Source: Variovorax sp. CAN15
Lineage (GTDB): Bacteria; Pseudomonadota; Gammaproteobacteria; Burkholderiales; Burkholderiaceae_C
Assembly (NCBI RefSeq): GCF_030462475.1
Contig: NZ_JASMRZ010000003.1
Location: 128,894 to 192,893 of the forward strand
Direction: 5' to 3'
Length of the DNA: 64,000 nucleotides
Made by a program: the position numbers and the translations under genes. The notes below the pieces were generated by a model. The model saw nothing but the letters and a program-made list of their open reading frames with translations, did not search any database and was not told the DNA's origin. Positions 9,275 to 35,361 of this stretch are shown piece after piece. The first letter of the stretch is position 1; each line of letters begins with the position of its first letter.

Positions 9275-10702
9275 TCAGGCCACCTCGCCGAAAGCCACGC
9301 TCACCCGCAGGCCAGTGGGCTCGGCGGCTTCGAGCCGCAGTTCCGCTCCCAGCAGCTCTGCATAGCGCGAGACGATCGACAGGCCCAGCCCCGAGCCCTG
9401 CCCCAGCTTCTCTCCAGCCGGACCTTGCGCCCATCGCTGCATCAGGGCTCGCTGCGCCTCCAGCGGAATGCCCGGCCCATCGTCGATCACGCTCAGCGTG
9501 CGGCCCGCGAGTTCGACGGTGATGGTGCGCCCGCCGTAGCGCAGCGCGTTGTCGATCAGGTTGTCGAGGATGCCTTCCACCAGCGCCTCGTTGGCCTGCA
9601 CGACCACACCGTCGTCGAGGCCGCGCGCGCCCAGGTCGACGCCGCGCGCATCGGCTCTCGCCAGATGCCGCAGCACCGTCTGCTCGGCGAGCACGTCGAG
9701 CCGCACGGGCACGCGTTTGAGCTCGGTGCGAGCCTCCTCGGCCAATGCGAGCGCCAGCAACTGGTCTATGAGGTGGCTGGCGCGCGCCTGGCGCTCCGAC
9801 ACGCGCTCGAGCTGCTCGCGCCATACCTTGGTGTCGTGCTGGGCCAGGCCGTATTCGGCCAGTGCGCGGATGCCCGCCAGCGGCGTGCGCAGTTCGTGCG
9901 CCACGTTGCCCACGAACTCGCGTTGCGCCTGCACGCTGTTGCCCAGCCGCTCGAACAGCGAGTTGACCGCATTGCCCAACCGCTGGATCTCGCGCGAGGT
10001 CTGCGCCACGGCTACCGGAGAAAGGTCGCGCACGTCGCGCCGGTCGAGCGCGCGCTGCAGGTCGCCCAGCGGCCGCAGATCGCTGCGGATGCCGTACCAG
10101 AGCCAGATCGCGAGCAGTATCAGCAGCACGATCTGCGGCGCGAGCGCATAGCCCAGCAGTTGCCGCACCAGCGCAGCGCGGCTCAGCGTGGTCTGCGCGA
10201 TGATCACCCGATAGGGCATGCTGATGTCGGGCTCGGCGTCATGCTCCAGCACCACCGCGCGCAGCGTGCTGCCTTCATAGTTCACGTCGGAGAAACGGTA
10301 GCGCGCACCGTCCACAGGCAGCGGCGCCTGCAGGCCCGCCTGGCCCGAGATCAGCGAGCCGTCGAGCCGCTGCACCGCGAAGTACACCTTGTCGATCTGG
10401 TCGAAGAGCACGGTCGCCACCTCGCGCGGAGAGAGCATCAGCTCGATGCCGCGCTCGCCCGCCTGCACGTTGGCCGACAGCGCATAGGCGTCATCGAGCA
10501 TGCCGCGGTCGAAGGCCTGTTCGGAGAAGTAGTTGGCGATGACCAGCGCGATGACCGCGCCGACCATCCACGTGAGTGCCAGCGGCACCAGCACGTTGCG
10601 CAGCACGCGCTGCGTGAGCGACGGCGCACGCACCGCAGCCGGCTGCGATCCGGCGCTGGTCTGTTGCTGCTGCCCGTTCACTCGCGCACCGGCGTCGATC
10701 AC
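9275..10702 (-). CDS. sensor histidine kinase (QseC/TctE-like)
   Basis: NVAHELRTPLAGIRALAEY H-box; DNLIDNALRYGG N-box; probable GTG start overlapping the regulator stop (GTGA). Confidence 0.9.
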   Translation of the reverse strand: MIDAGARVNGQQQQTSAGSQPAAVRAPSLTQRVLRNVLVPLALTWMVGAVIALVIANYFSEQAFDRGMLDDAYALSANVQAGERGIELMLSPREVATVLFDQIDKVYFAVQRLDGSLISGQAGLQAPLPVDGARYRFSDVNYEGSTLRAVVLEHDAEPDISMPYRVIIAQTTLSRAALVRQLLGYALAPQIVLLILLAIWLWYGIRSDLRPLGDLQRALDRRDVRDLSPVAVAQTSREIQRLGNAVNSLFERLGNSVQAQREFVGNVAHELRTPLAGIRALAEYGLAQHDTKVWREQLERVSERQARASHLIDQLLALALAEEARTELKRVPVRLDVLAEQTVLRHLARADARGVDLGARGLDDGVVVQANEALVEGILDNLIDNALRYGGRTITVELAGRTLSVIDDGPGIPLEAQRALMQRWAQGPAGEKLGQGSGLGLSIVSRYAELLGAELRLEAAEPTGLRVSVAFGEVA

Positions 10703-20351: not shown

Positions 20352-21143
20352 ATGAGCTTCAAACCCCGGATCCTGATCGCCGAAGACGAGTCGGGCATCG
20401 CCGACACGCTGCAATACGTCCTGAAAAGCGACGGATTCATCCCCGTCTGGTGCGCAACGGCCGAGGAAGCCATCGCCCAGTTCGCGCAGGAGCCGCCGGC
20501 GCTGGCCATCCTGGACATCGGGCTGCCCGATCTCAACGGTTTCGAGCTCTTCAAACGCCTGCAGGCGCTCAATCAGTCCATGGGCGGCCCGGAGGTGCCC
20601 ATGGTGTTCCTGACGGCCCGCAGCGACGAAATAGACCGCGTGGTGGGCCTCGAACTGGGCGCCGACGACTACATTGCCAAGCCCTTTTCTCCACGAGAGC
20701 TCGTCGCCCGGGTACGAACGATCCTGCGGCGCAGCGCCAGAAACGGCTCAGGAGCCCAGCCAGCGGCCGCTGGCGCGAATCACGTGGGGGGGCATCAAAT
20801 ATCCGCGAACGGCGCTCCTGCGGGCTATCAGCCCCCCGCATCGCCCTTCGCGCTGGACACCGAGCGCATGCAGATCCGTTACTACGGACGGCTGCTCGAG
20901 CTATCGCGCTACGAATACGGCTTGCTGAGATTGCTGGTGCAGCGCCCCGGCCGTGTCTTCACACGCGACGAACTGCTCGAACACGTCTGGGACGACTCCA
21001 GCGACAGCTTCGACCGCACCGTCGACGCGCACATCAAGACCTTGCGCGCCAAGCTCAAGGCGATCGCGCCGGACGTGGAGCCGATCCGCACGCTGCGCGG
21101 CACCGGCTACGCACTGAACGAAGAACTGCCATCAAAGGCATGA
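20352..21143 (+). CDS. creB: two-component response regulator CreB
   Basis: MSFKPRILIAEDESGIADTLQYVLKSDGF...LAILDIGLPDLNGFELFKRLQ; followed by creC. Confidence 0.9.
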   Translation: MSFKPRILIAEDESGIADTLQYVLKSDGFIPVWCATAEEAIAQFAQEPPALAILDIGLPDLNGFELFKRLQALNQSMGGPEVPMVFLTARSDEIDRVVGLELGADDYIAKPFSPRELVARVRTILRRSARNGSGAQPAAAGANHVGGHQISANGAPAGYQPPASPFALDTERMQIRYYGRLLELSRYEYGLLRLLVQRPGRVFTRDELLEHVWDDSSDSFDRTVDAHIKTLRAKLKAIAPDVEPIRTLRGTGYALNEELPSKA

Positions 21144-21267: not shown

Positions 21268-22713
21268 TTGACGAGGCGCACCCGGATCTTCATCGGCATC
21301 CTGCTGATCTACACGGCGGGCATCGCCTTCCTGCTCTACCGCGTCGTCTCCGACATCGATCCGCGCTACCGCGAATCCGCCGAGGAATCGCTGGTCGAGA
21401 CCTCGCAGCTCGTGGCCAGCCTGGTCGAGCAGGACGTGATCGCCGGCGCCATCAACACCGCGCGGCTCGAGCCGCTGTTCCGCACGGTCTACGCGCGCGA
21501 GTTCTCGGCGCAGATATACAACCTGCACAAGAGCCGCGTCGAGCTGCGCGTGTACGTCACCGACCGCAACGGCCGCGTGATGTTCGATTCGCTCGGCAGG
21601 CACCTCGGCGCCGACTATTCGAAGTGGAGCGACGTGAGCCGCACGCTTGCCGGCCTGTACGGCGCGCGCACCTCGCGCGACGTCGACGGCGATCCGCGCA
21701 CTTCGGTCATGTACGTGGGCGCCCCGATCCGCTGGAACAACGAGATCGTCGGCATGGTCAGTGTCGGCAAGCCTGTGCAGAGCTTCGGGCAGTTCGTGGA
21801 GGACGCGCGTGGGCGAACCATCTGGGTCGGCGTGGGCTCGGCGCTGGCGCTGCTGCTGCTCACCTTGATCGTCTCGGTCTGGCTGGTACGGCCCTTCGGC
21901 CTGATCCGCGACTACTGGACCTGGGTGCGCGCCCAGCGCAGCCTGAGCCTTTCACGCATGGCAAGGCGCGCGGTCGACGGCGTGCGCACCGGCTTCAGCG
22001 AAATGCGCGACGCGCTCACCGGGCGCAACTACGTGGCCGACTACGTCCAGACCTTCACGCATGAAGTGAAAAGCCCGCTCTCCGCCATCCGCGGCGCGGC
22101 CGAGCTGCTGCAGGAACCGTCGATGCCGCATCCCGAGCGCGAACGCTTCCTGAAGAACATCGAGCGCGAGACCCAGCGCATCCAGGAAATCGTCGACCGC
22201 ATGATGGAGCTCACCGCGCTCGAAACGCGGCGCGCGCTCGATCGCACCGAACCGGTGGCATTGGCCGCGCTGATCGACGACATCGCCACCAGCGCACAGA
22301 CAGCGGCAGCCAAGCGCAACATCAGGCTGCTGGTGAACATTCGCAACGAAGCACGCACCGAAGGCGACCCTTTCCTGCTGCGCCGCGCGATCAGCAACCT
22401 GCTCGACAACGCCATCGATTTTTCGCCGCGTGACAGCGAAGTTCTGCTCACGCTGGAAACGACCTCGAAGCTGGCCCGCGTGAGCGTGCGCGACCACGGC
22501 CCCGGCATTCCGGAGTACGCGCAGGAAAAAGTTTTTGAAAAGTTCTATTCACTCGCCAGGCCGCACAGCCAGAAGAAGAGCACCGGCCTGGGGCTGGCCT
22601 TCGTGAAGGAGATCGCGGCCCTGCACCACGGCCGCATCGACCTGGGTAACGCGTCGCGTGGCGGGGCGGTGGCGACGCTCACGTTGCCGCTGCTGTCTTC
22701 TTCACATCACTGA
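21268..22713 (+). CDS. creC: two-component sensor histidine kinase CreC
   Basis: RIFIGILLIYTAGIAFLLYRVVSDIDPRYRESAEESLVETSQLVAS...; FTHEVKSPLSAIRGAAELL; TTG start. Confidence 0.9.
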   Translation: MTRRTRIFIGILLIYTAGIAFLLYRVVSDIDPRYRESAEESLVETSQLVASLVEQDVIAGAINTARLEPLFRTVYAREFSAQIYNLHKSRVELRVYVTDRNGRVMFDSLGRHLGADYSKWSDVSRTLAGLYGARTSRDVDGDPRTSVMYVGAPIRWNNEIVGMVSVGKPVQSFGQFVEDARGRTIWVGVGSALALLLLTLIVSVWLVRPFGLIRDYWTWVRAQRSLSLSRMARRAVDGVRTGFSEMRDALTGRNYVADYVQTFTHEVKSPLSAIRGAAELLQEPSMPHPERERFLKNIERETQRIQEIVDRMMELTALETRRALDRTEPVALAALIDDIATSAQTAAAKRNIRLLVNIRNEARTEGDPFLLRRAISNLLDNAIDFSPRDSEVLLTLETTSKLARVSVRDHGPGIPEYAQEKVFEKFYSLARPHSQKKSTGLGLAFVKEIAALHHGRIDLGNASRGGAVATLTLPLLSSSHH

Positions 22714-26757: not shown

Positions 26758-28053
26758 CTAGCGAAAGGATTGGAGCCGCCGCGCGCTGCCGCGTTCCGGC
26801 GTCCGGAGTTCGAGCGTGCCTTGCAGCGCAGCGCGCTGCGCGCAATGCATCGCGTCGAAGTACTTGTCGTGGTCGAAGGCGATAAGCAGAAGATCCACTC
26901 CGGCGTCGAGCGCACGGACGGTGGCGTCGCAGAGACCGCGGTTGTAGGCCGCGCCCATCGTGAGATCGTCGGTGACGAGCAGGCCCTGGTAGCCCCATTC
27001 GCCTCGAATCACCCGCTGCACGATTTTGCGCGAGAAAGAGACCGGATAAGCGGCGTCAAGTTCCGCAAGGATGACATGGCCCAGCATGATCGCCGCATCC
27101 GAATGTTTCGATACGTCTTGAAACGGCTTCCAGTCGTGCTCCGCGAGCCGGGCGACGGGTGTGTGCAGTTCGGCGGCGAAATGGTGGGTGTCCCCGGTCA
27201 CGCCGGCCAGGCCGGGAAAGTGCTTGAGCGTGCCTCGTACGCCAGCGGATTCGAGGCCCAGCTCGTAAGCGAGCGCCACCTGCGCGGTGACCGCCGGGTC
27301 GGCCGATATGGCGCGTTCGTCGATGCGGGTGTGGAAGTCCCAGCGATCCGGCGCGCGCCCGGTGCGCAGGTCGACCACCGGGCTGAAGTTGAGCGTGATG
27401 CCGAGTGCGGCGAGCGCCCTGCCCTGCTGCGCGCCGTAGGCATGGGCGCGCTGGGTGAGTTCGTCGTCGGGCAGGTCGGCATCGTCGAGAAGCGAGGCGA
27501 GCACGGGCTGGCGTTCGACCAATGGGGACAGGCGGGAGACAGCGCCGCCTTCCTGGTCGGTCGCGACGATCAGCGGCGGCAGGCCGGCCGAACGGCGCAG
27601 CGCCTGCAGCCCTGAGATCTCGTCGCGCAGCTCTTCCGCCGTGCGACCCCTGACATTGCGGCCGGTGACGAAGATGCCGCCGATCAGCCCCTTGCGTGCC
27701 AGTTCGCGCAGCTCCTTCGCGTCGTCATAGCCGACGATGAAATGTGCGCCCACCGCCTGCGCGAGCGGGCCTTCCATCGCATTCACTTCGGCGCGGTGCT
27801 GGCGCGACATCGCTTCGTTGCACAGCGCCGTGAGCACGGCCGCGATTGCCAGTCCCAGCGCCACGGGCCGCAGCCTGCCTTGTGCAAAGCGCCAAGCGAT
27901 CGCGATGCTCGCAAGAAGCAAGGCCAGCAGCAGCGGCAGTTCCCACGCACGCATGAAGCGCAGGTGCGGGTCCTTCAGGTGCCAGGCCCAGAACCACAGC
28001 ACGGCCAGCGCCAGCCAGCCCGATGTACCGGCGATGACCCGCAGCAGCTTCAT
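26758..28053 (-). CDS. GH3 beta-N-acetylhexosaminidase-like (NagZ-like) protein with N-terminal TM segments
   Basis: VATDQEGGAVSRLSP, KHFPGLAGVTGDTHH, VTDDLTMGAAY; ATGA overlap with creD. Confidence 0.87.
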   Translation of the reverse strand: MKLLRVIAGTSGWLALAVLWFWAWHLKDPHLRFMRAWELPLLLALLLASIAIAWRFAQGRLRPVALGLAIAAVLTALCNEAMSRQHRAEVNAMEGPLAQAVGAHFIVGYDDAKELRELARKGLIGGIFVTGRNVRGRTAEELRDEISGLQALRRSAGLPPLIVATDQEGGAVSRLSPLVERQPVLASLLDDADLPDDELTQRAHAYGAQQGRALAALGITLNFSPVVDLRTGRAPDRWDFHTRIDERAISADPAVTAQVALAYELGLESAGVRGTLKHFPGLAGVTGDTHHFAAELHTPVARLAEHDWKPFQDVSKHSDAAIMLGHVILAELDAAYPVSFSRKIVQRVIRGEWGYQGLLVTDDLTMGAAYNRGLCDATVRALDAGVDLLLIAFDHDKYFDAMHCAQRAALQGTLELRTPERGSARRLQSFR

Positions 28054-29540
28054 GCGGCCGTCGGCGCTTCAAGTGCCGCTACGGGCGCGGCTTCGTTGCG
28101 GCGCGAGAGCGCGTACCAGTCGACCTTGCGCGTCACGAGCATCAATGTGGCCAGCATGCCGAAGATCAGCAGCGCACCCAGCAGCAGCGCATTGCTTTCC
28201 GACGCCAGCAGGCCGTAGAGCGCACCGTACAGCAGTGCGACGAATGCGCCGAACGACATGCCGCGGCGCCAGCCGCCCAGCACCGCGCTGAAGTACACGG
28301 CCAGCAGCGCGACGCTCGCCGAGGCGGCGCCCGCGTAGGCCATCCAGAAGGCGAACTTCTCGGACAGCGCCAGCAGCAGCAGGAAGAAGAGCGCGATCGA
28401 CAGGCCCACCAGCCCGTACTGGATCGGATGCAGGCGCAGCTTGCGGAACAGCTCGAACATGAAGGCGGCCATCAGCACCAGGCCGATGAAGAGCACGCCG
28501 TACTTGCCCGCGCGCGTGCTCATCGAATAGACGTTGATGGGCTGAGCGAGCGACACGTCGAAGGTCTGCAGCGGGCCCAGGTTCCGGCGCGCCGGAACTA
28601 CGGCGGCAGCTGTCGCTGCCACATCGGCGCTGCTGGCCACATCCACTGCGCCGCCCCGGCCCGAGAGGCCTGCGCGTACCTGCTCGCGCGACGAGGTCAC
28701 GAGCGAGGACACGCGCCAGTGCGCGTCGAAGCCCTGTGGCGTCACGCTGCGCTCGGCCGCGAGAAAGCGGCCGCCGAAGCTGGGGTGTGCCCAGGGCGAG
28801 CTCAGGTGTGCGGTCGTCTCTTCGGCGATGGGCGTGATGGCGAGCGTGTCCTGTCCAACCAGCCCCAGCTTCATCTCGAAAGGAATCGGTGTGCCGGCCT
28901 GCCAGGCGGCGAGCGCGGCGCCGGTGACCGGTGCATGGATGCCGTTGGCGAACCAGGCATCGTCGTCAAGGCCCGGCACGCGTTGCCTGAAGCGCAGGGT
29001 TTCGCCGCCCATGCTCATGGTGGGCGAGCCGTCGAGGCCGCGCAGGTCGCTCACGTTGAAGGCGATGAGCGGCGCCTTGAACTCGATCTTCGAATCGGTC
29101 TCGCTGTGCGGCACGGCCTTGGGGTCGAAGGCGGTGAAGCCGCCGGAGAGCACCGCATCGAGCGTGTAGAAGGGAATCTTGAAGATGCCGCGATAGCGTT
29201 CCTGTGGCGCCATCGTGCCCTCGATGTGCAGCTTGTCGGGGAACACCACGTGGGCCATTTCCTTGCTGCGCGGCTCCTGGCCGATCACCTTGCCCTGCGC
29301 GTTGCGCAGCGGCTCCATCCAGCGTTCCACGTAAGGCACCAGAAGCAGCGGGCCGACCATGGTCTGGCGGCCCGCGTAGGTGGAGGCGAGTTCGTCGGCA
29401 GCCTCGCGCTGGCTCTCGCCGCGGGCACGGTTGATCGAATCGATCTCCCCCAGCGGAATGCAAAGGAGCAGCAGCAGGAAAAGCAGGCCGGCGACCTTGG
29501 CCAGCATGGAACTCATCACGGCCCTGAGCAGCTGAAGCAT
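28050..29540 (-). CDS. creD: cell envelope integrity protein CreD
   Basis: LCIPLGEIDSINRARGESQREAADELASTYAGRQTMVGPLLLVPYVERW; C-terminal IQYGLVGLSIALFFLLLLALSEKFAFWMAY typical CreD. Confidence 0.94.
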   Translation of the reverse strand: MLQLLRAVMSSMLAKVAGLLFLLLLLCIPLGEIDSINRARGESQREAADELASTYAGRQTMVGPLLLVPYVERWMEPLRNAQGKVIGQEPRSKEMAHVVFPDKLHIEGTMAPQERYRGIFKIPFYTLDAVLSGGFTAFDPKAVPHSETDSKIEFKAPLIAFNVSDLRGLDGSPTMSMGGETLRFRQRVPGLDDDAWFANGIHAPVTGAALAAWQAGTPIPFEMKLGLVGQDTLAITPIAEETTAHLSSPWAHPSFGGRFLAAERSVTPQGFDAHWRVSSLVTSSREQVRAGLSGRGGAVDVASSADVAATAAAVVPARRNLGPLQTFDVSLAQPINVYSMSTRAGKYGVLFIGLVLMAAFMFELFRKLRLHPIQYGLVGLSIALFFLLLLALSEKFAFWMAYAGAASASVALLAVYFSAVLGGWRRGMSFGAFVALLYGALYGLLASESNALLLGALLIFGMLATLMLVTRKVDWYALSRRNEAAPVAALEAPTAA

Positions 29541-29589
29541 GTTTTTCTCTCCTCGTCTGTAGCGATGGCCGCGATGCTCGCCGCGCGAG

Positions 29590-29605
29590 CCGAAGGCCGT
29601 GTGAA
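29590..29605 (-). promoter_or_regulatory. degenerate cre-tag oriented toward creD
   Basis: Minus strand TTCAC-ACGGCC-TTCGG: first half perfect, second 3/5, 6-nt spacer. Confidence 0.35.
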
Positions 29606-29623
29606 GGGCACGGGCCGCCTCGC

Positions 29624-29639
29624 TTCACACAGACTTCAC
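29624..29639 (+). promoter_or_regulatory. perfect CreB-type tag TTCAC-N6-TTCAC in the creD / VIT-vWA divergent region
   Basis: TTCAC ACAGAC TTCAC read directly; matches the cre/blr-tag consensus described for CreB/BlrA regulons. Confidence 0.75.
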
Positions 29640-29745
29640 ACAGCGGATGCGGGCGGTCGACGACTTCAAGACGCCTTCCAACTGGCTTCTCGCGCGCTGG
29701 AGAAAGTTGCGGCCGTGCAAGTTCGCACGGACAAGGACCCCCGCC

Positions 29746-31806
29746 ATGGATGCCCAAACCACCCCACGTCCCGGCCGCTGGCTCTGGCTCGCCACCGTGA
29801 GCCTGGCGACCGCGGGCTTCATCGCCATGGGCGTGCGCCCGGTGCACGCGCAGGAAGCGCCAGCCGGCCCGCGCCAGAAGACCGAGAGCCCCTATTTCTT
29901 CGTGAAGAGCGACGATCCCTCGGTCGACCGCCTGCCGCTGAAGGGCACCGAGGTCTCGGTGAAGATCTCGGGCGTGATCGCCGACGTGACGGTCACGCAG
30001 ACCTACCGCAATGAAGGACAGCGCGCCATCGAGGCGAAGTACGTGTTCCCCGGCTCGGCCAAGGCCGCGGTGAGCGGCCTCAACGTGCGGCTGGCCGACC
30101 GGCTCATCACCGCGCAGATCCGCGAGAAGCAGCAGGCGCAGATCGAGTACGACACCGCCAAGAAGGAAGGCAAGACCGCCGCGCTGCTGGAGCAGCACCT
30201 GCCCAACGTGTTCCAGATGAACGTCGCCAACATCCTGCCGGGCGACGACGTGAAGGTGGAGCTGCGCTACACCGAGCTGCTGGTGCCGCAGTCGGGCAAC
30301 TACCAGTTCGTGTTTCCGACGGTGGTGGGGCCGCGCTACAACTCGCCGCAGTCGGAGAACGCACAGGCCAAGTGGGTCGCGCAGCCCACGCTGCCCGCGG
30401 GCACTGCCGCCGGCACCAGCTTCAGGCTCAAGGCCACCATCGACACGCCGATGGGCATCAAGGAGATCCGCTCCGCCACGCACGCCATCGACGTGAAGAA
30501 GAGCGACGAGGACCAGCACGCCGACGTCGTGCTCGCCGCCGATGGCCGTCCCGCCGACAACCGCGACTTCGTGCTCGACTACCGCCTCTCAGGCGAGAAG
30601 ATCGAATCGGGCCTGATGCTCTACAAGGGCCAGGGCAACAACGCCGAGAACTTCTTCCTCGCCATGGTCGAGCCGCCCAAGGCCGTGGCCGCCAGCGCGA
30701 TCTCGCCGCGCGACTACATCTTCGTGGTCGACATTTCGGGCTCGATGCATGGCTTTCCGCTCGACACCGCGAAGACGGTGCTCGAACGCCTGATCGGCGG
30801 CCTGCGCCCCAGCGACACCTTCAACGTGCTGCTCTTTTCGGGCAGCAACAAGATGCTCTCGCCCAAGTCGGTGCCGGCCACGCGCGCCAACATCGAGCAG
30901 GCGCTGTCCACCATCAAGAACTACAGCGGCAGCGGCAGCACCGAACTCATTCCGGCGCTCAAGCGCGTGTACGCCGAACCCAAGGAAAAGAACGTATCGC
31001 GCACCGTGGTGGTGGTGACCGACGGCTACGTGACGGTGGAGCGCGAGGCCTTCGAGCTGGTGCGCAACAACCTGTCGAAAGCCAACGTGTTCGCCTTCGG
31101 CATCGGCTCCTCGGTGAACCGCAGCCTGATGGAAGGCATCGCGCGTGCCGGCATGGGCGAGCCCTTCATCATCACCGACCCGATCCAGGCGCCCGAGCAG
31201 GCCGCGCGCTTTCGCCGCATGGTCGAGTCGCCGGTGCTCACGAACGTGAAGGCCACCTTCGGCGGTCTCGACGTGTACGACGTGGAGCCGCAGGCGCTGC
31301 CCGACGTGCTCGGCGAGCGCCCTGTGATCGTGTTCGGCAAGTGGCGCGGTGAAGCAAAAGGCCGCGTGATCATCGAAGGCCAGAGCGCCAGCGGCCCCTA
31401 TCGCCAGGAAGTGCGCATCGACGGCAACACCCGCCAGGACACGGCCTCGCTGCGCACGCTGTGGGCCCGCCACCGCATCCAGAGCCTGAGCGACCAGGAA
31501 ACGCTGGAAGGCGGCACGGCCCTGAAGGACCGCATCACCGAGCTCGGCTTGAAGTACAGCCTGCTCACCCGGTACACGAGCTTCATCGCCGTCGACAAGG
31601 TGGTGCGCAACATCGCGCCGCAGAACAGCGTGGACGTGAACCAGCCGCTGCCCCTGCCGCAAGGCGTGAGCGAGCTGGCGCTCGGCGCCGAGGTGCCGAG
31701 CACGCCCGAGCCCGAATCGCTGGGTGCCATCGCCGTAGTGCTGTCGATGCTAGCCATGCTGCGCCGCCGCGCGCGCCGCAACGACGCACGCCGCTTCACC
31801 GCCTGA
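29746..31806 (+). CDS. VIT + vWA domain surface protein with PEP-CTERM-like C-terminal sorting signal
   Basis: Signal peptide ending VRPVHAQ; VIT VTVTQTYRNEGQRAIEAKYVFPG; MIDAS DISGSMHG; C-terminus PSTPEPESLGAIAVVLSMLAMLRRRARRN. Confidence 0.92.
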   Translation: MDAQTTPRPGRWLWLATVSLATAGFIAMGVRPVHAQEAPAGPRQKTESPYFFVKSDDPSVDRLPLKGTEVSVKISGVIADVTVTQTYRNEGQRAIEAKYVFPGSAKAAVSGLNVRLADRLITAQIREKQQAQIEYDTAKKEGKTAALLEQHLPNVFQMNVANILPGDDVKVELRYTELLVPQSGNYQFVFPTVVGPRYNSPQSENAQAKWVAQPTLPAGTAAGTSFRLKATIDTPMGIKEIRSATHAIDVKKSDEDQHADVVLAADGRPADNRDFVLDYRLSGEKIESGLMLYKGQGNNAENFFLAMVEPPKAVAASAISPRDYIFVVDISGSMHGFPLDTAKTVLERLIGGLRPSDTFNVLLFSGSNKMLSPKSVPATRANIEQALSTIKNYSGSGSTELIPALKRVYAEPKEKNVSRTVVVVTDGYVTVEREAFELVRNNLSKANVFAFGIGSSVNRSLMEGIARAGMGEPFIITDPIQAPEQAARFRRMVESPVLTNVKATFGGLDVYDVEPQALPDVLGERPVIVFGKWRGEAKGRVIIEGQSASGPYRQEVRIDGNTRQDTASLRTLWARHRIQSLSDQETLEGGTALKDRITELGLKYSLLTRYTSFIAVDKVVRNIAPQNSVDVNQPLPLPQGVSELALGAEVPSTPEPESLGAIAVVLSMLAMLRRRARRNDARRFTA

Positions 31807-31831
31807 TCCATCCGGAAAAAGAAAGAAAAGA

Positions 31832-32761
31832 ATGTCCTTGGCAATGCTTGCCCACCGCCATCCGCGCATCGTGGACTGGGGCATCCACATCGACCGCACG
31901 CCGGCCGCCGGCTGGATCGGCCTGCAGTTCCTTGCGCTGATGCCCACCTGGGTGTGGATGGCCCAGCGCATGCGCGACGGCTCCGACGATCCGCTGGGAC
32001 TGCTGGCACTGGTCGCGCTCGCCGCGCTGGCCTGGAGCCGCAGGCGCGAACTGCGCGCTTCGCCCCGGCTGGGCTGGCTCGCGCTGGCCGGTGCAGGCAC
32101 CGTGCTCGCTACGCTGCTGCGCACGGGGCTCGGCTTCATGCCCGCGCTGCCGCCGCTCGCGGCCGGACTGATCGCTGTGCTGGCCCTGGCCTGCGGGCTG
32201 CTGGCTTTCCTGCCGCGCAAGGTGGCGGCGCTCCCGGTGGCCGGCCTCGCGGTGCTCGCGCTGCCGCTGCTTTCTTCGTTGCAGTTCTATGCTGGCTACC
32301 CGCTGCGCATGGTCACGGCCGAGGTCAGCCGCTGGCTGCTGTCGCCGGGCTTCGAGGTGGCGCGCGAAGGCGCGAGCCTGGCGGTCGATGGCCGGCTGGT
32401 GATCGTCGATGCGCCCTGCTCCGGCGTGCAGATGGTGTGGCTGGGCTACTTCACGGCCTGCGCGGTCGCGCTGTGGGCATCGCGCAGCGGCCGGGACTTC
32501 ATGGCGCGGCTGCCGATGGTCGGGCTTCTGGTGCTCGCCGGGAACATCGTGCGCAACAGCGTGCTGATCGCCTTCGAGGGGGCCGGCCATCCGCTCGCGC
32601 CGTGGGCGCACAACGCGCTGGGCCTCTTGGTGCTGGCCGTGGTGTGCGGCGCCATCGCCCGGCTGATGGTGCCGGCGCGTCCCGCGCCCGAACCCGCCGA
32701 ACTGCCCATTCCGGGCCTGATCACCACCCAGGGAGGCCGCCATGTCGACACCGTTCTTTGA
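31832..32761 (+). CDS. exosortase family protein
   Basis: Multi-TM; DAPCSGVQMVWLGYF (Cys), GNIVRNSVLIAFEG (Arg), PWAHNALGLLVL (His); adjacent to a PEP-CTERM-like target. Confidence 0.92.
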   Translation: MSLAMLAHRHPRIVDWGIHIDRTPAAGWIGLQFLALMPTWVWMAQRMRDGSDDPLGLLALVALAALAWSRRRELRASPRLGWLALAGAGTVLATLLRTGLGFMPALPPLAAGLIAVLALACGLLAFLPRKVAALPVAGLAVLALPLLSSLQFYAGYPLRMVTAEVSRWLLSPGFEVAREGASLAVDGRLVIVDAPCSGVQMVWLGYFTACAVALWASRSGRDFMARLPMVGLLVLAGNIVRNSVLIAFEGAGHPLAPWAHNALGLLVLAVVCGAIARLMVPARPAPEPAELPIPGLITTQGGRHVDTVL

Positions 32762-33314
32762 GCGCTGGTTCGCGAACCATTTCATCAACCGCATCGGCCA
32801 CAAGACCGCTTTCGCGTTCGCGATGCTGCTGTGCATGCTGTGGTCGGCCACGGCGGCGCTGCGCACGCCGGCGGAACCGATGGCGCCTGCCGTCGCTTCG
32901 CACGAATGGCCCAGCGAGTGGGACGGCGCCGCGCTGCGCCCGCTGGCCCTGAGCGACATCGAGCAGCGTTTTGCCGACCGCTTCCCCGGCGCGATCGGCC
33001 GCATGACCGACGGCACGCAGACGCTGGTGATGCGCGAGGTCAGCCAGCCCACGCGCATGCTGCATCCGGCCACCGACTGCTATCGCGCGCTGGGCTACCG
33101 CATCGAGCAGGCGCGCCTGGAACGCGACGCTCGCGAGCGCATGTGGCGCTGTTTTGTTGCGCAACGGCACGGAGCGCAAAAAATCCGCGTCTGCGAGCGC
33201 ATCGTCGACGCCCGGGGCACGGCTTTCACGGACACTTCGAGCTGGTACTGGGCAGCAGCCAGCGGCCAGTCGCATGGGCCGTGGCAAGCTGTCACCGTAG
33301 CGAGACCGATCTGA
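32742..33314 (+). CDS. exosortase-associated (EpsI-like) hypothetical protein with N-terminal TM
   Basis: Overlaps the exosortase 3' end; one N-terminal TM then soluble domain ...TRMLHPATDCYRALGY. Confidence 0.7.
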   Translation: MSTPFFERWFANHFINRIGHKTAFAFAMLLCMLWSATAALRTPAEPMAPAVASHEWPSEWDGAALRPLALSDIEQRFADRFPGAIGRMTDGTQTLVMREVSQPTRMLHPATDCYRALGYRIEQARLERDARERMWRCFVAQRHGAQKIRVCERIVDARGTAFTDTSSWYWAAASGQSHGPWQAVTVARPI

Positions 33315-33326
33315 GAAACCTGCCTG

Positions 33327-34594
33327 TGAAGAAGACCCTGCGATTCATGCTCTATGGCCTGATGGCCCTGGTCATTACGGCCTGTGTAGCTATCTTTTTG
33401 ATAGTCAAGCTGGCGCTCGCGCCGGCTGCCGGCGAATGGAGCACCTCGGTGAAGGCGGGGCCGCTGAATTTCGAGATCGGCGTGCCGACGGCGGTGCGCG
33501 TGGCCACCTCGACATGGTTCGCGCCGCACCTCGATGGCCGTTCCTTCGACACCCGCTTCGGCACCGTGCGCTTCGCCTGGAAGCCAGCCGGCGAACTGCT
33601 GGAAATGCAGTGCGCGCCCTGCAGCGCCGACGTGCCGGCGCTGGGCACTCAGCCGATCCGCGTCGATCGCCTGATCGCCACGGTGAAGCGCGACGGCAAC
33701 ACACTCGCCGGAACCTTCGAGGCCACGCCGCAGAGCAACGACGCGAGCCAGCTTCACGGCCATTGGGACGGCAGGCTTACGCCGAAGAACATCCACCTCG
33801 ATGCCAGCGTGCAGGACGCGCCCATCGCCCGCTGGTACGCGGTGCTGGTGCCCGCCCTGCCCGAGCTGCAGCGCGCGCGCATCGGCGGCACGCTGGCGCT
33901 GCGCGGCCAGCTCGTGCTGCCCGAGGCCACCTTCGCGGTGCAGCCGGCCATCAGCCAGTTCACCGTGGAAGGGCTGGGCACCGAGGCCATGCTGGGCGCG
34001 CGCACCAGCTGCGGCCCGTCGGCGAAGCTGGCGAACGACAGCTGGCTGGCGCGCGCCGTCATCGCGGCCGAAGACCAGCGCTTCTTCACCCACGGCGGCT
34101 ACGACCTCACGGAAATCCTCGCCTCCATCGACAACAACCAGAAGCCCGGCCAGACGCGGCGCGGCGGCAGCACGCTCACGCAGCAGCTCGCCAAGCTGCT
34201 GGTGACGGGCAGCGACCGCACGGCCGAGCGCAAGCTGCGCGAGCTGCTCTACGCGGTCGAGATGGAGCAGACGCTGGGCAAGGCCCGCATCCTGCAGCTG
34301 TACCTGGACAACGCCCCTTGGGGCGGCAATCTCTGCGGCGCCGAGGCCGCGGCGCGGCGCTACTTCAAGCGCAGCGCGCGCACGCTCGAACCGGCGCAGG
34401 CCGTGTGGCTCGCCGCCATGCTGCACAAGCCCCAGGCCGTGCTCGAACAATGGCGGCGCGACGGCCAGGTCGATCCCGATCGCATCAAGTGGATCGCCGA
34501 AGGCATCCGCGGAATCAGCCGCAACCAGCGCGAGGCCCTGCTCAAGAGCGTGGCCGCGGCGAAGTTCAGGGCGCCGGAGGCTGCCACGCAATGA
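33327..34594 (+). CDS. GT51 monofunctional transglycosylase-like protein with distinct N-terminal domain
   Basis: EDQRFFTHGGYDLTEI, RRGGSTLTQQLAKLLVTGSDRTAERKLRELLYAVEMEQTLGKARILQLYLDNAPWG. Confidence 0.88.
33389..33405. repeat. GCTAT-N7-ATAGC mini-hairpin, copy B (one arm mismatch, inside GT51 CDS)
   Basis: GCTATCTTTTTGATAGT. Confidence 0.65.
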
Positions 34595-35361
34595 GCACCT
34601 TCCACCTGTCGGCTACCGAGATCGAGGCCATCGAGCGAGCCACCATCGCGGCGGTGTCGCCCGACGTGACGGAAGAAATCGACGGCTGGCTTCTGCCCTT
34701 CGCGAGCGGTACCGTCAAGCGCGCGAAGTCGGCCGTGCCGCTGCATCGCGACGCGGTCGAAGCCGCCACGCTCGACCGCATCGAGGACCGCTACGACAGT
34801 CGCCAGGCGGCGCCCGCGCTGCGGCTGGCCGACGCGCCGTGCTTCGACAGCCTTCGTGCCGAGCTGGAGCGCAGGCACTACATGGCCGACAGCCCCACCT
34901 GCGTGCAGATCGGCTCGGCACAGCACATGCGGCAGGTGGCCGCGCCGGGCGGCGCATTGGCGGATGTCGACCCGGCGCCCGACAACGCCTGGGCGGCCCT
35001 GTTCCTGGGCGAGGGCTTCGACCCTGTGGATGGCGCCCATCGCGTGCGAATGCTCTCCCGCGCCAAGGGCACGCTCTACGCGAGCGTGCGCGAAGGCGGC
35101 CTCACTGTGGCAGCGGGGGCCATGGCCTTCGGCCACGGCTGGGCCAGCGTGCACGGCATGCGCACCGACCAGGCGCAGCGCGGCCGGGGCCTCGCGGGAC
35201 GCGTGCTGGCCGGGCTGGCGCAGGCCGCTTCGGAGCGCGGCTTCGAGCGGGTGTTTCTGCAGGTCGATGCGGGCAACGACGCGGCGCTGTCGCTGTACCG
35301 ACGCGCCGGCTTCGAGACGCAGTGGAAATACAGCTACTGGCAGCGCCAGCAGTGGCCTTGA
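34591..35361 (+). CDS. GNAT family N-acetyltransferase
   Basis: RTDQAQRGRGLAGRVLAGLAQAASERGFERVFLQVDAGNDAALSLYRRAGFE; ATGA overlap with the GT51 gene. Confidence 0.9.
   Translation: MSTFHLSATEIEAIERATIAAVSPDVTEEIDGWLLPFASGTVKRAKSAVPLHRDAVEAATLDRIEDRYDSRQAAPALRLADAPCFDSLRAELERRHYMADSPTCVQIGSAQHMRQVAAPGGALADVDPAPDNAWAALFLGEGFDPVDGAHRVRMLSRAKGTLYASVREGGLTVAAGAMAFGHGWASVHGMRTDQAQRGRGLAGRVLAGLAQAASERGFERVFLQVDAGNDAALSLYRRAGFETQWKYSYWQRQQWP

Follow-up and report, generated by a model that had tools for sequence, protein, structure and literature searches.

A probable CreBC-controlled, single-substrate exosortase Q operon in Variovorax sp. CAN15

The locus and its genes

The window analysed here is a stretch of 64,000 nucleotides from Variovorax sp. 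CAN15 (RefSeq assembly GCF_030462475.1, contig NZ_JASMRZ010000003.1, positions 128,894 to 192,893 of the forward strand), the host genome being a 6.9-Mb draft assembly rated 100% complete. It carries a four-gene operon encoding a VIT/vWA protein with a PEP-CTERM-like sorting tail (the target), exosortase Q (XrtQ), an accessory protein and a GT51 peptidoglycan glycosyltransferase. Sequence comparison indicates that this operon is very probably a dedicated, single-substrate exosortase system under the control of the two-component system CreBC. The creBC genes lie inside the window, 7 kb upstream of the operon and on the same strand, and the xrtQ and accessory genes overlap by 20 nt. All of the genes named in an earlier note on this DNA were found to be present, and those of the operon and its predicted regulator are located as follows.

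20352–21143, + strand: creB, response regulator from the CreBC clade that is associated with XrtQ (open reading frame list)
21268–22713, + strand: creC, sensor histidine kinase from the same clade, with an uncertain start codon (NF008312)
29624–29639, + strand: CreB box (cre-tag) TTCACACAGACTTCAC, exact TTCAC-N6-TTCAC, 122 nt before the target start codon
29746–31806, + strand: VIT/vWA target, 686 aa, with signal peptide (PF08487, PF00092, PF13768)
31693–31803, + strand: PEP-CTERM-like sorting tail of the target, VPSTPEPE-hydrophobic-RRRARRN (tail profile, alignment A6)
31832–32761, + strand: exosortase Q (XrtQ), 309 aa (NF012182, 397.9 bits)
32742–33314, + strand: accessory protein (ACC), 190 aa, one transmembrane helix and a periplasmic domain (NF033770 positions 287–446)
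33326–34594, + strand: GT51 peptidoglycan glycosyltransferase, 422 aa, GTG start at 33326 (PF00912, 151.9 bits)

Exosortase Q and its target

The exosortase is a full member of NF012182, scoring 397.9 bits against a curated cut-off of 270, and is 95–96% identical to the XrtQ of the closest named loci. Residues Cys196, Arg241 and His260 were invariant among the 26 sequences aligned. As XrtQ was the sole PF09721 match in the host genome, and no other exosortase was found there, processing of the target by a housekeeping or exopolysaccharide (EPS) exosortase was rejected. Elsewhere, genome G096 holds a second, weakly matching exosortase, and the displacement of the xrtQ match in Variovorax sp. 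E3 (L099, around 10001–10375) may reflect a frameshift or a sequencing error.

The VIT domain of the target matched PF08487 at 118.6 bits in a profile search, and its vWA domain carries an invariant DxSxS motif formed by D329, S331 and S333 (alignment A4). Against TIGR03788 the protein scored 425.6 bits, under the cut-off of 551.65, making it homologous in its body and not a member, and no match at E<=0.01 was obtained to TIGR04477, the VIT protein of the XrtN system. The C-terminus reads VPSTPEPES, a transmembrane helix and RRRARRN, and so has the PEP-CTERM layout of a PEP motif, a hydrophobic stretch and an Arg-rich end. Positions V9, P10, T12, P13, E14 and P15 were invariant across 24 tails (alignment A6), and the tail extracted from L060 reads STPEQP. 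When a profile of the 24 target tails was run against the host genome, a single strong match was returned, the neighbour of XrtQ, at an E-value of 4e-26 with the next at 0.26. Given one exosortase and one matching tail in the genome, the system in this host is therefore a single-substrate one, consisting of one sorting enzyme and one adjacent matching tail, a pairing termed ‘dedicated’ in the usage of PMC3237569. The earlier note had proposed a single substrate, and neither of the observations it had set against that proposal, many PEP-CTERM targets and a second, EPS-linked exosortase, was encountered in the genome.

XrtQ could in principle be a release or maturation protease only, freeing the target to the periplasm or the outside with no covalent anchor. 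The tail, with its general PEP–helix–Arg layout, is compatible with such a role; however, the archaeosortase ArtA, an exosortase homologue, couples cleavage to lipid attachment (PMC7157517), and a purely proteolytic XrtQ is considered unlikely.

VIT/vWA paralogues with other C-termini were also observed. One in G015 (L179:6612–9143) ends in an OmpA-like domain, and one in G126 (L178:5892–8276) ends in a plain C-terminal transmembrane helix without a PEP motif and adjoins an extracytoplasmic function (ECF) sigma-like gene.

Conservation of the operon

Of about 80 loci, nearly all showed the order target–XrtQ–accessory protein–GT51, the genes for the most part overlapping or lying a short distance apart, and as these loci come from many genera the arrangement is therefore not a product of chance. 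The linkage of target, exosortase and GT51, which the earlier note expected relatives to share, was thus found to be widely conserved. Within a family-wide sample of 150 genomes, XrtQ was counted in 26, fragments included, and co-occurred with the VIT target (present in 24 genomes; Fisher p 8e-26), with the GT51 N-terminal domain (GT51 in 23 of the 26 XrtQ genomes; p 8e-23) and with CreC (p 8e-11), all three p-values being descriptive only because the genomes are related.

Departures from the four-gene order help to separate its parts. G035 carries a complete VIT–XrtQ–accessory locus without GT51, and G293, a genome from outside the family, likewise has target, XrtQ and accessory protein with no GT51. 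Because GT51 is absent from these two loci, the core of the system is target–XrtQ–accessory protein, with GT51 looking like an addition within the window's lineage (Burkholderiales). The reverse situation is seen in G129, which has kept creBC, the CreB box and GT51 and lacks the target, xrtQ and accessory genes. In G148 xrtQ is split and the target absent, while in G027 (L180:6592–7410) creBC and a CreB box are followed by a decayed copy, in which the beginnings of xrtQ and of the accessory gene are joined.

CreBC and the CreB box

CreBC is known as a regulator from beta-lactam responses. In P. aeruginosa it is activated by loss of PBP4 (PMC2654508), and the cre-tag TTCAC-N6-TTCAC is the motif of the CreB regulon as described in E. 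coli (PMC3660660). The CreB box preceding the target is the only exact match to this motif within the window, where 0.03 would be expected. Of the 79 loci scanned, 77 have an exact box on the coding strand in the 400 bp preceding the target gene, and all 79 have a box there once a single mismatch is allowed; the remaining 1.43 Mb of the same loci contained two exact matches. Control patterns upstream of the target returned 0–1 matches for other spacers and none on the opposite strand. The box was also present upstream of the target in 19 of 20 loci of the family-wide sample, and was kept before the target where creBC lies elsewhere in the genome (L053, L055, L058; G005, G105, G091). In many genomes without XrtQ, a CreB box is instead found upstream of creD.

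The creC product matched NF008312 at 590 bits (E 4.7e-177, cut-off 356) and was the sole match at E<=1e-60 in the host genome. A CreB match stood directly upstream of creC in nearly all creC loci examined, the creB orthologue in L056 scoring 309 bits against NF008296. Where the two are linked, creC precedes the target by about 140 nt to about 7 kb and invariably shares its strand. CreC proteins from all 25 of 25 XrtQ genomes fell into one clade with 100/100 support; those of the remaining genomes are 34–40% identical to the CreC of the window and are mostly encoded directly before creD. Only 4 changes of the XrtQ label were needed on the CreC tree, compared to 12 on an rpoB tree of the same genomes, and species phylogeny alone is therefore insufficient to explain the CreC clade, which was rejected as a plain echo of it. 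The earlier note had guessed at CreBC from the presence of creD, and the box in 77 of 79 loci, together with the single CreC clade, supports the predicted regulation more strongly than was guessed.

Several findings weigh against control of a dedicated exosortase system by CreBC. In 4 of the 21 loci from the family creC is not linked to the operon, and the XrtQ-associated CreC clade includes three genomes that lack XrtQ (G129, G062 and G090), the first of which retains GT51. Shared ancestry may explain part of the CreC pattern, because XrtQ genomes cluster to some degree on the rpoB tree as well. One XrtQ-type locus outside the family (G293, L164) has neither nearby CreBC nor a CreB box. Finally, the general PEP-CTERM model PF07589 scores the target tail at 16.3 bits, below its cut-off of 20.7, although the tail still ranks as its best match in the host genome.

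Two further observations concern the box itself. The host genome (G000) contains 14 exact CreB boxes (L304–L317), among them that of the target operon, a reversed control pattern giving one. In the region of the box (29624–29690 in the window) and in relatives, a second and looser pair of CTTC motifs, about 11 bp apart, was noticed downstream of the box in many loci, as in CTTCAACGCGCCTTC of L040, which is perhaps a second CreB half-site.

The accessory protein

The accessory protein and the C-terminal part of exosortase T (XrtT) are homologous, the match to NF033770 covering positions 287–446. As all 28 of its family members match this region, XrtQ together with the accessory protein resembles a split XrtT, a likeness drawn from the profile matches. 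EpsI/DUF3485 (PF11984) gave a weak match in 1 of the 28 members (E 0.013). An AlphaFold2 model of the accessory protein had a predicted local distance difference test (pLDDT) score of 87 and no Foldseek match below an E-value of 0.1; candidate structural relatives reached a Z-score of at most 6.2, no higher than unrelated folds, and none was convincing.

The GT51 glycosyltransferase

The GT51 protein matched PF00912 at 151.9 bits, above the cut-off. In the alignment its catalytic residues Glu249 and Glu306 are invariant and the GxSTxxQQ and RKxxE motifs conserved, and structure comparison assigned its GT51 half to the MtgA/penicillin-binding protein (PBP) fold (Z-scores of 14–15). Against MtgA (TIGR02070) it scored 139.1 bits, under the cut-off of 182.65, and it has an additional N-terminal domain. 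The N-terminal 235 residues comprise a transmembrane helix and a private beta-rich domain of about 200 residues with an invariant CxPC pair (residues 96 and 99); Cys229 and Cys337 are also invariant, and disulphides are possible. No Pfam family was matched by this domain in 28 members, DUF748 for example reaching an E-value of 0.06 at best, in 2 of the 28. Its distribution in the 150 genomes was essentially confined to XrtQ neighbourhoods, in 24 genomes plus one spurious weak hit. Across loci the GT51 gene closes the operon, and a 4-nt overlap with the accessory gene is frequent. The host genome encodes five further GT51 proteins, including an MtgA-like protein and class A PBPs.

Two readings of this partnership were considered. 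In the first, GT51 is carried along in the CreB regulon as a passenger: it would be a spare polymerase of peptidoglycan, induced by stress, sharing the promoter and having no part in sorting. The presence of creBC, CreB box and GT51 in G129 without the exosortase genes supports this, as do the related loci elsewhere that lack GT51. It fits less well with the near one-to-one co-occurrence of GT51 and XrtQ, with the near absence of the GT51 N-domain from the rest of the sample, and with the lack of GT51 in CreC-positive, XrtQ-less genomes other than G129. On balance the passenger role is a serious candidate, if somewhat short of probable, and GT51 may only be co-regulated with the sorting genes.

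In the second reading, XrtQ moves the target onto a lipid-linked peptidoglycan precursor or nascent glycan, and GT51 polymerises the conjugate into the wall, which would be the exosortase counterpart of Gram-positive sortase A with lipid II. Its support comes from a GT51 with a private N-domain accompanying XrtQ in 23 of 26 genomes as the last gene of the operon, with intact catalytic motifs and in addition to the MtgA-like protein and class A PBPs of the genome, and from the G015 paralogue, whose OmpA-like domain is a peptidoglycan-binding fold. However, G035 and G293 are complete without GT51, G129 has GT51 and no exosortase genes, and ArtA substrates end on membrane lipid rather than peptidoglycan (PMC7157517). 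With GT51 missing from some loci and alone in G129, covalent attachment to peptidoglycan is therefore put forward as a hypothesis, and coupling of this kind appears rather unlikely. The direct tie to peptidoglycan attachment drawn in the earlier note is accordingly weakened, GT51 being dispensable for the core and persisting without it.

Neighbouring genes

Two flanking genes that the earlier note had described with the system proved to be lineage-specific neighbours.

28050–29540, − strand: creD, divergent neighbour of the operon (NF008712, 462.6 bits)
34591–35361, + strand: GNAT gene, after GT51

The GNAT gene was rejected as part of the operon since it occurs in Variovorax only. Likewise creD was rejected: 5 of the 21 loci from the family have it close to the operon, and its conservation at this site is restricted to Variovorax and some relatives. 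Between creBC and the operon lie a desaturase-like gene, a PBP1A-type gene, a GH3 gene and creD.

Discussion

The operon is best described as a dedicated, CreBC-controlled, single-substrate exosortase system, and confidence in this description is high. In the proposed mechanism, envelope or peptidoglycan stress would be sensed by the distinct-clade CreC, leading to phosphorylation of CreB, which would bind the TTCAC-N6-TTCAC box before the target gene and switch on target, XrtQ, accessory protein and GT51 together. The binding and induction steps are modelled on the published E. coli box. The target would be exported by Sec and retained through its C-terminal helix, and XrtQ would then cut it at the TPEP motif via a Cys acyl-enzyme, with the accessory protein, fused to the exosortase in XrtT, proposed to aid cleavage or provide the acceptor. 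Sec export, cleavage near TPEP through the Cys acyl-enzyme and activation of CreB under cell-wall stress are predicted by analogy with known families. For the acceptor group of exosortase substrates, the current view rests on analogy with archaeosortase. That the operon represents a stress-induced Gram-negative equivalent of sortase-to-lipid II anchoring, controlled by CreBC and using its own GT51, seems improbable.

The system makes it possible to ask experimentally to which group exosortases join their substrates. Multi-substrate exosortase systems with EPS clusters are hard to dissect, whereas the XrtQ locus pairs a single enzyme with a single substrate and adds one helper, a peptidoglycan polymerase and a switch predicted to be inducible, all in a soil genus that is tractable. 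CreBC would also gain a sorting operon among its predicted outputs.

Comparison with known systems

The enzyme family XrtQ is itself already curated and is not new. A literature search, with subscription papers outside its coverage, found no paper on XrtQ, XrtT or XrtN, and because no XrtQ paper was found, the target, CreBC wiring and GT51 partner of XrtQ appear undescribed in the literature searched; in particular, the dedicated CreBC clade with its CreB box and the GT51 partnership appear unreported so far.

An exosortase acting on a VIT/vWA target, as described in the earlier note, has precedents. Depending on the bacterium, the vWA/inter-alpha-trypsin family ends in a GlyGly-CTERM, PEP-CTERM or LPXTG tail (PMC3237569), so the swapping of anchoring devices on VIT/vWA proteins was already known, and models for XrtN and its VIT protein (TIGR04476/TIGR04477) exist. 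The XrtN system also pairs an exosortase with a VIT-domain target; the target of the window does not match TIGR04477, whereas proteins of the XrtQ-like loci L165, L166 and L169 match below the cut-off and bridge both kinds. In these three loci an XrtQ-like exosortase and accessory protein accompany TIGR04477-resembling VIT proteins with PEP tails, and in L165 a CreC-like kinase adjoins.

The proteobacterial dedicated sortase system (TIGR03784/03785/03787/03788) likewise places one VIT/vWA target beside one transpeptidase and a linked two-component system. Here, an exosortase stands in for the sortase, a PEP tail for LPXTG and CreBC for TIGR03785/03787, with GT51 in addition; when tested against the class GN sortase TIGR03784, the gene adjoining the target was found to be an exosortase, this test covering the adjacent gene and including no search for a distant sortase. 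A two-component system again adjoins a VIT/vWA locus, and the same VIT/vWA body is met on differing anchors: LPXTG with sortase, PEP with exosortase, GlyGly with rhombosortase, an OmpA-like domain, or a plain transmembrane helix.

In the exosortase T (NF033770) locus of G405 (L163), too, the VIT/vWA target ends in a PEP-like tail and a CreB/CreC-like two-component system is present; it differs in that the accessory domain is fused to the exosortase, GT51 is absent and no exact CreB box was found at the locus. With the CreBC–CreD regulon, the XrtQ system shares creBC, the CreB box and a third gene in the cre locus predicted to be under a CreB box; in XrtQ genomes the sorting operon occupies, exactly or nearly, the position behind creBC where most other genomes have creD.

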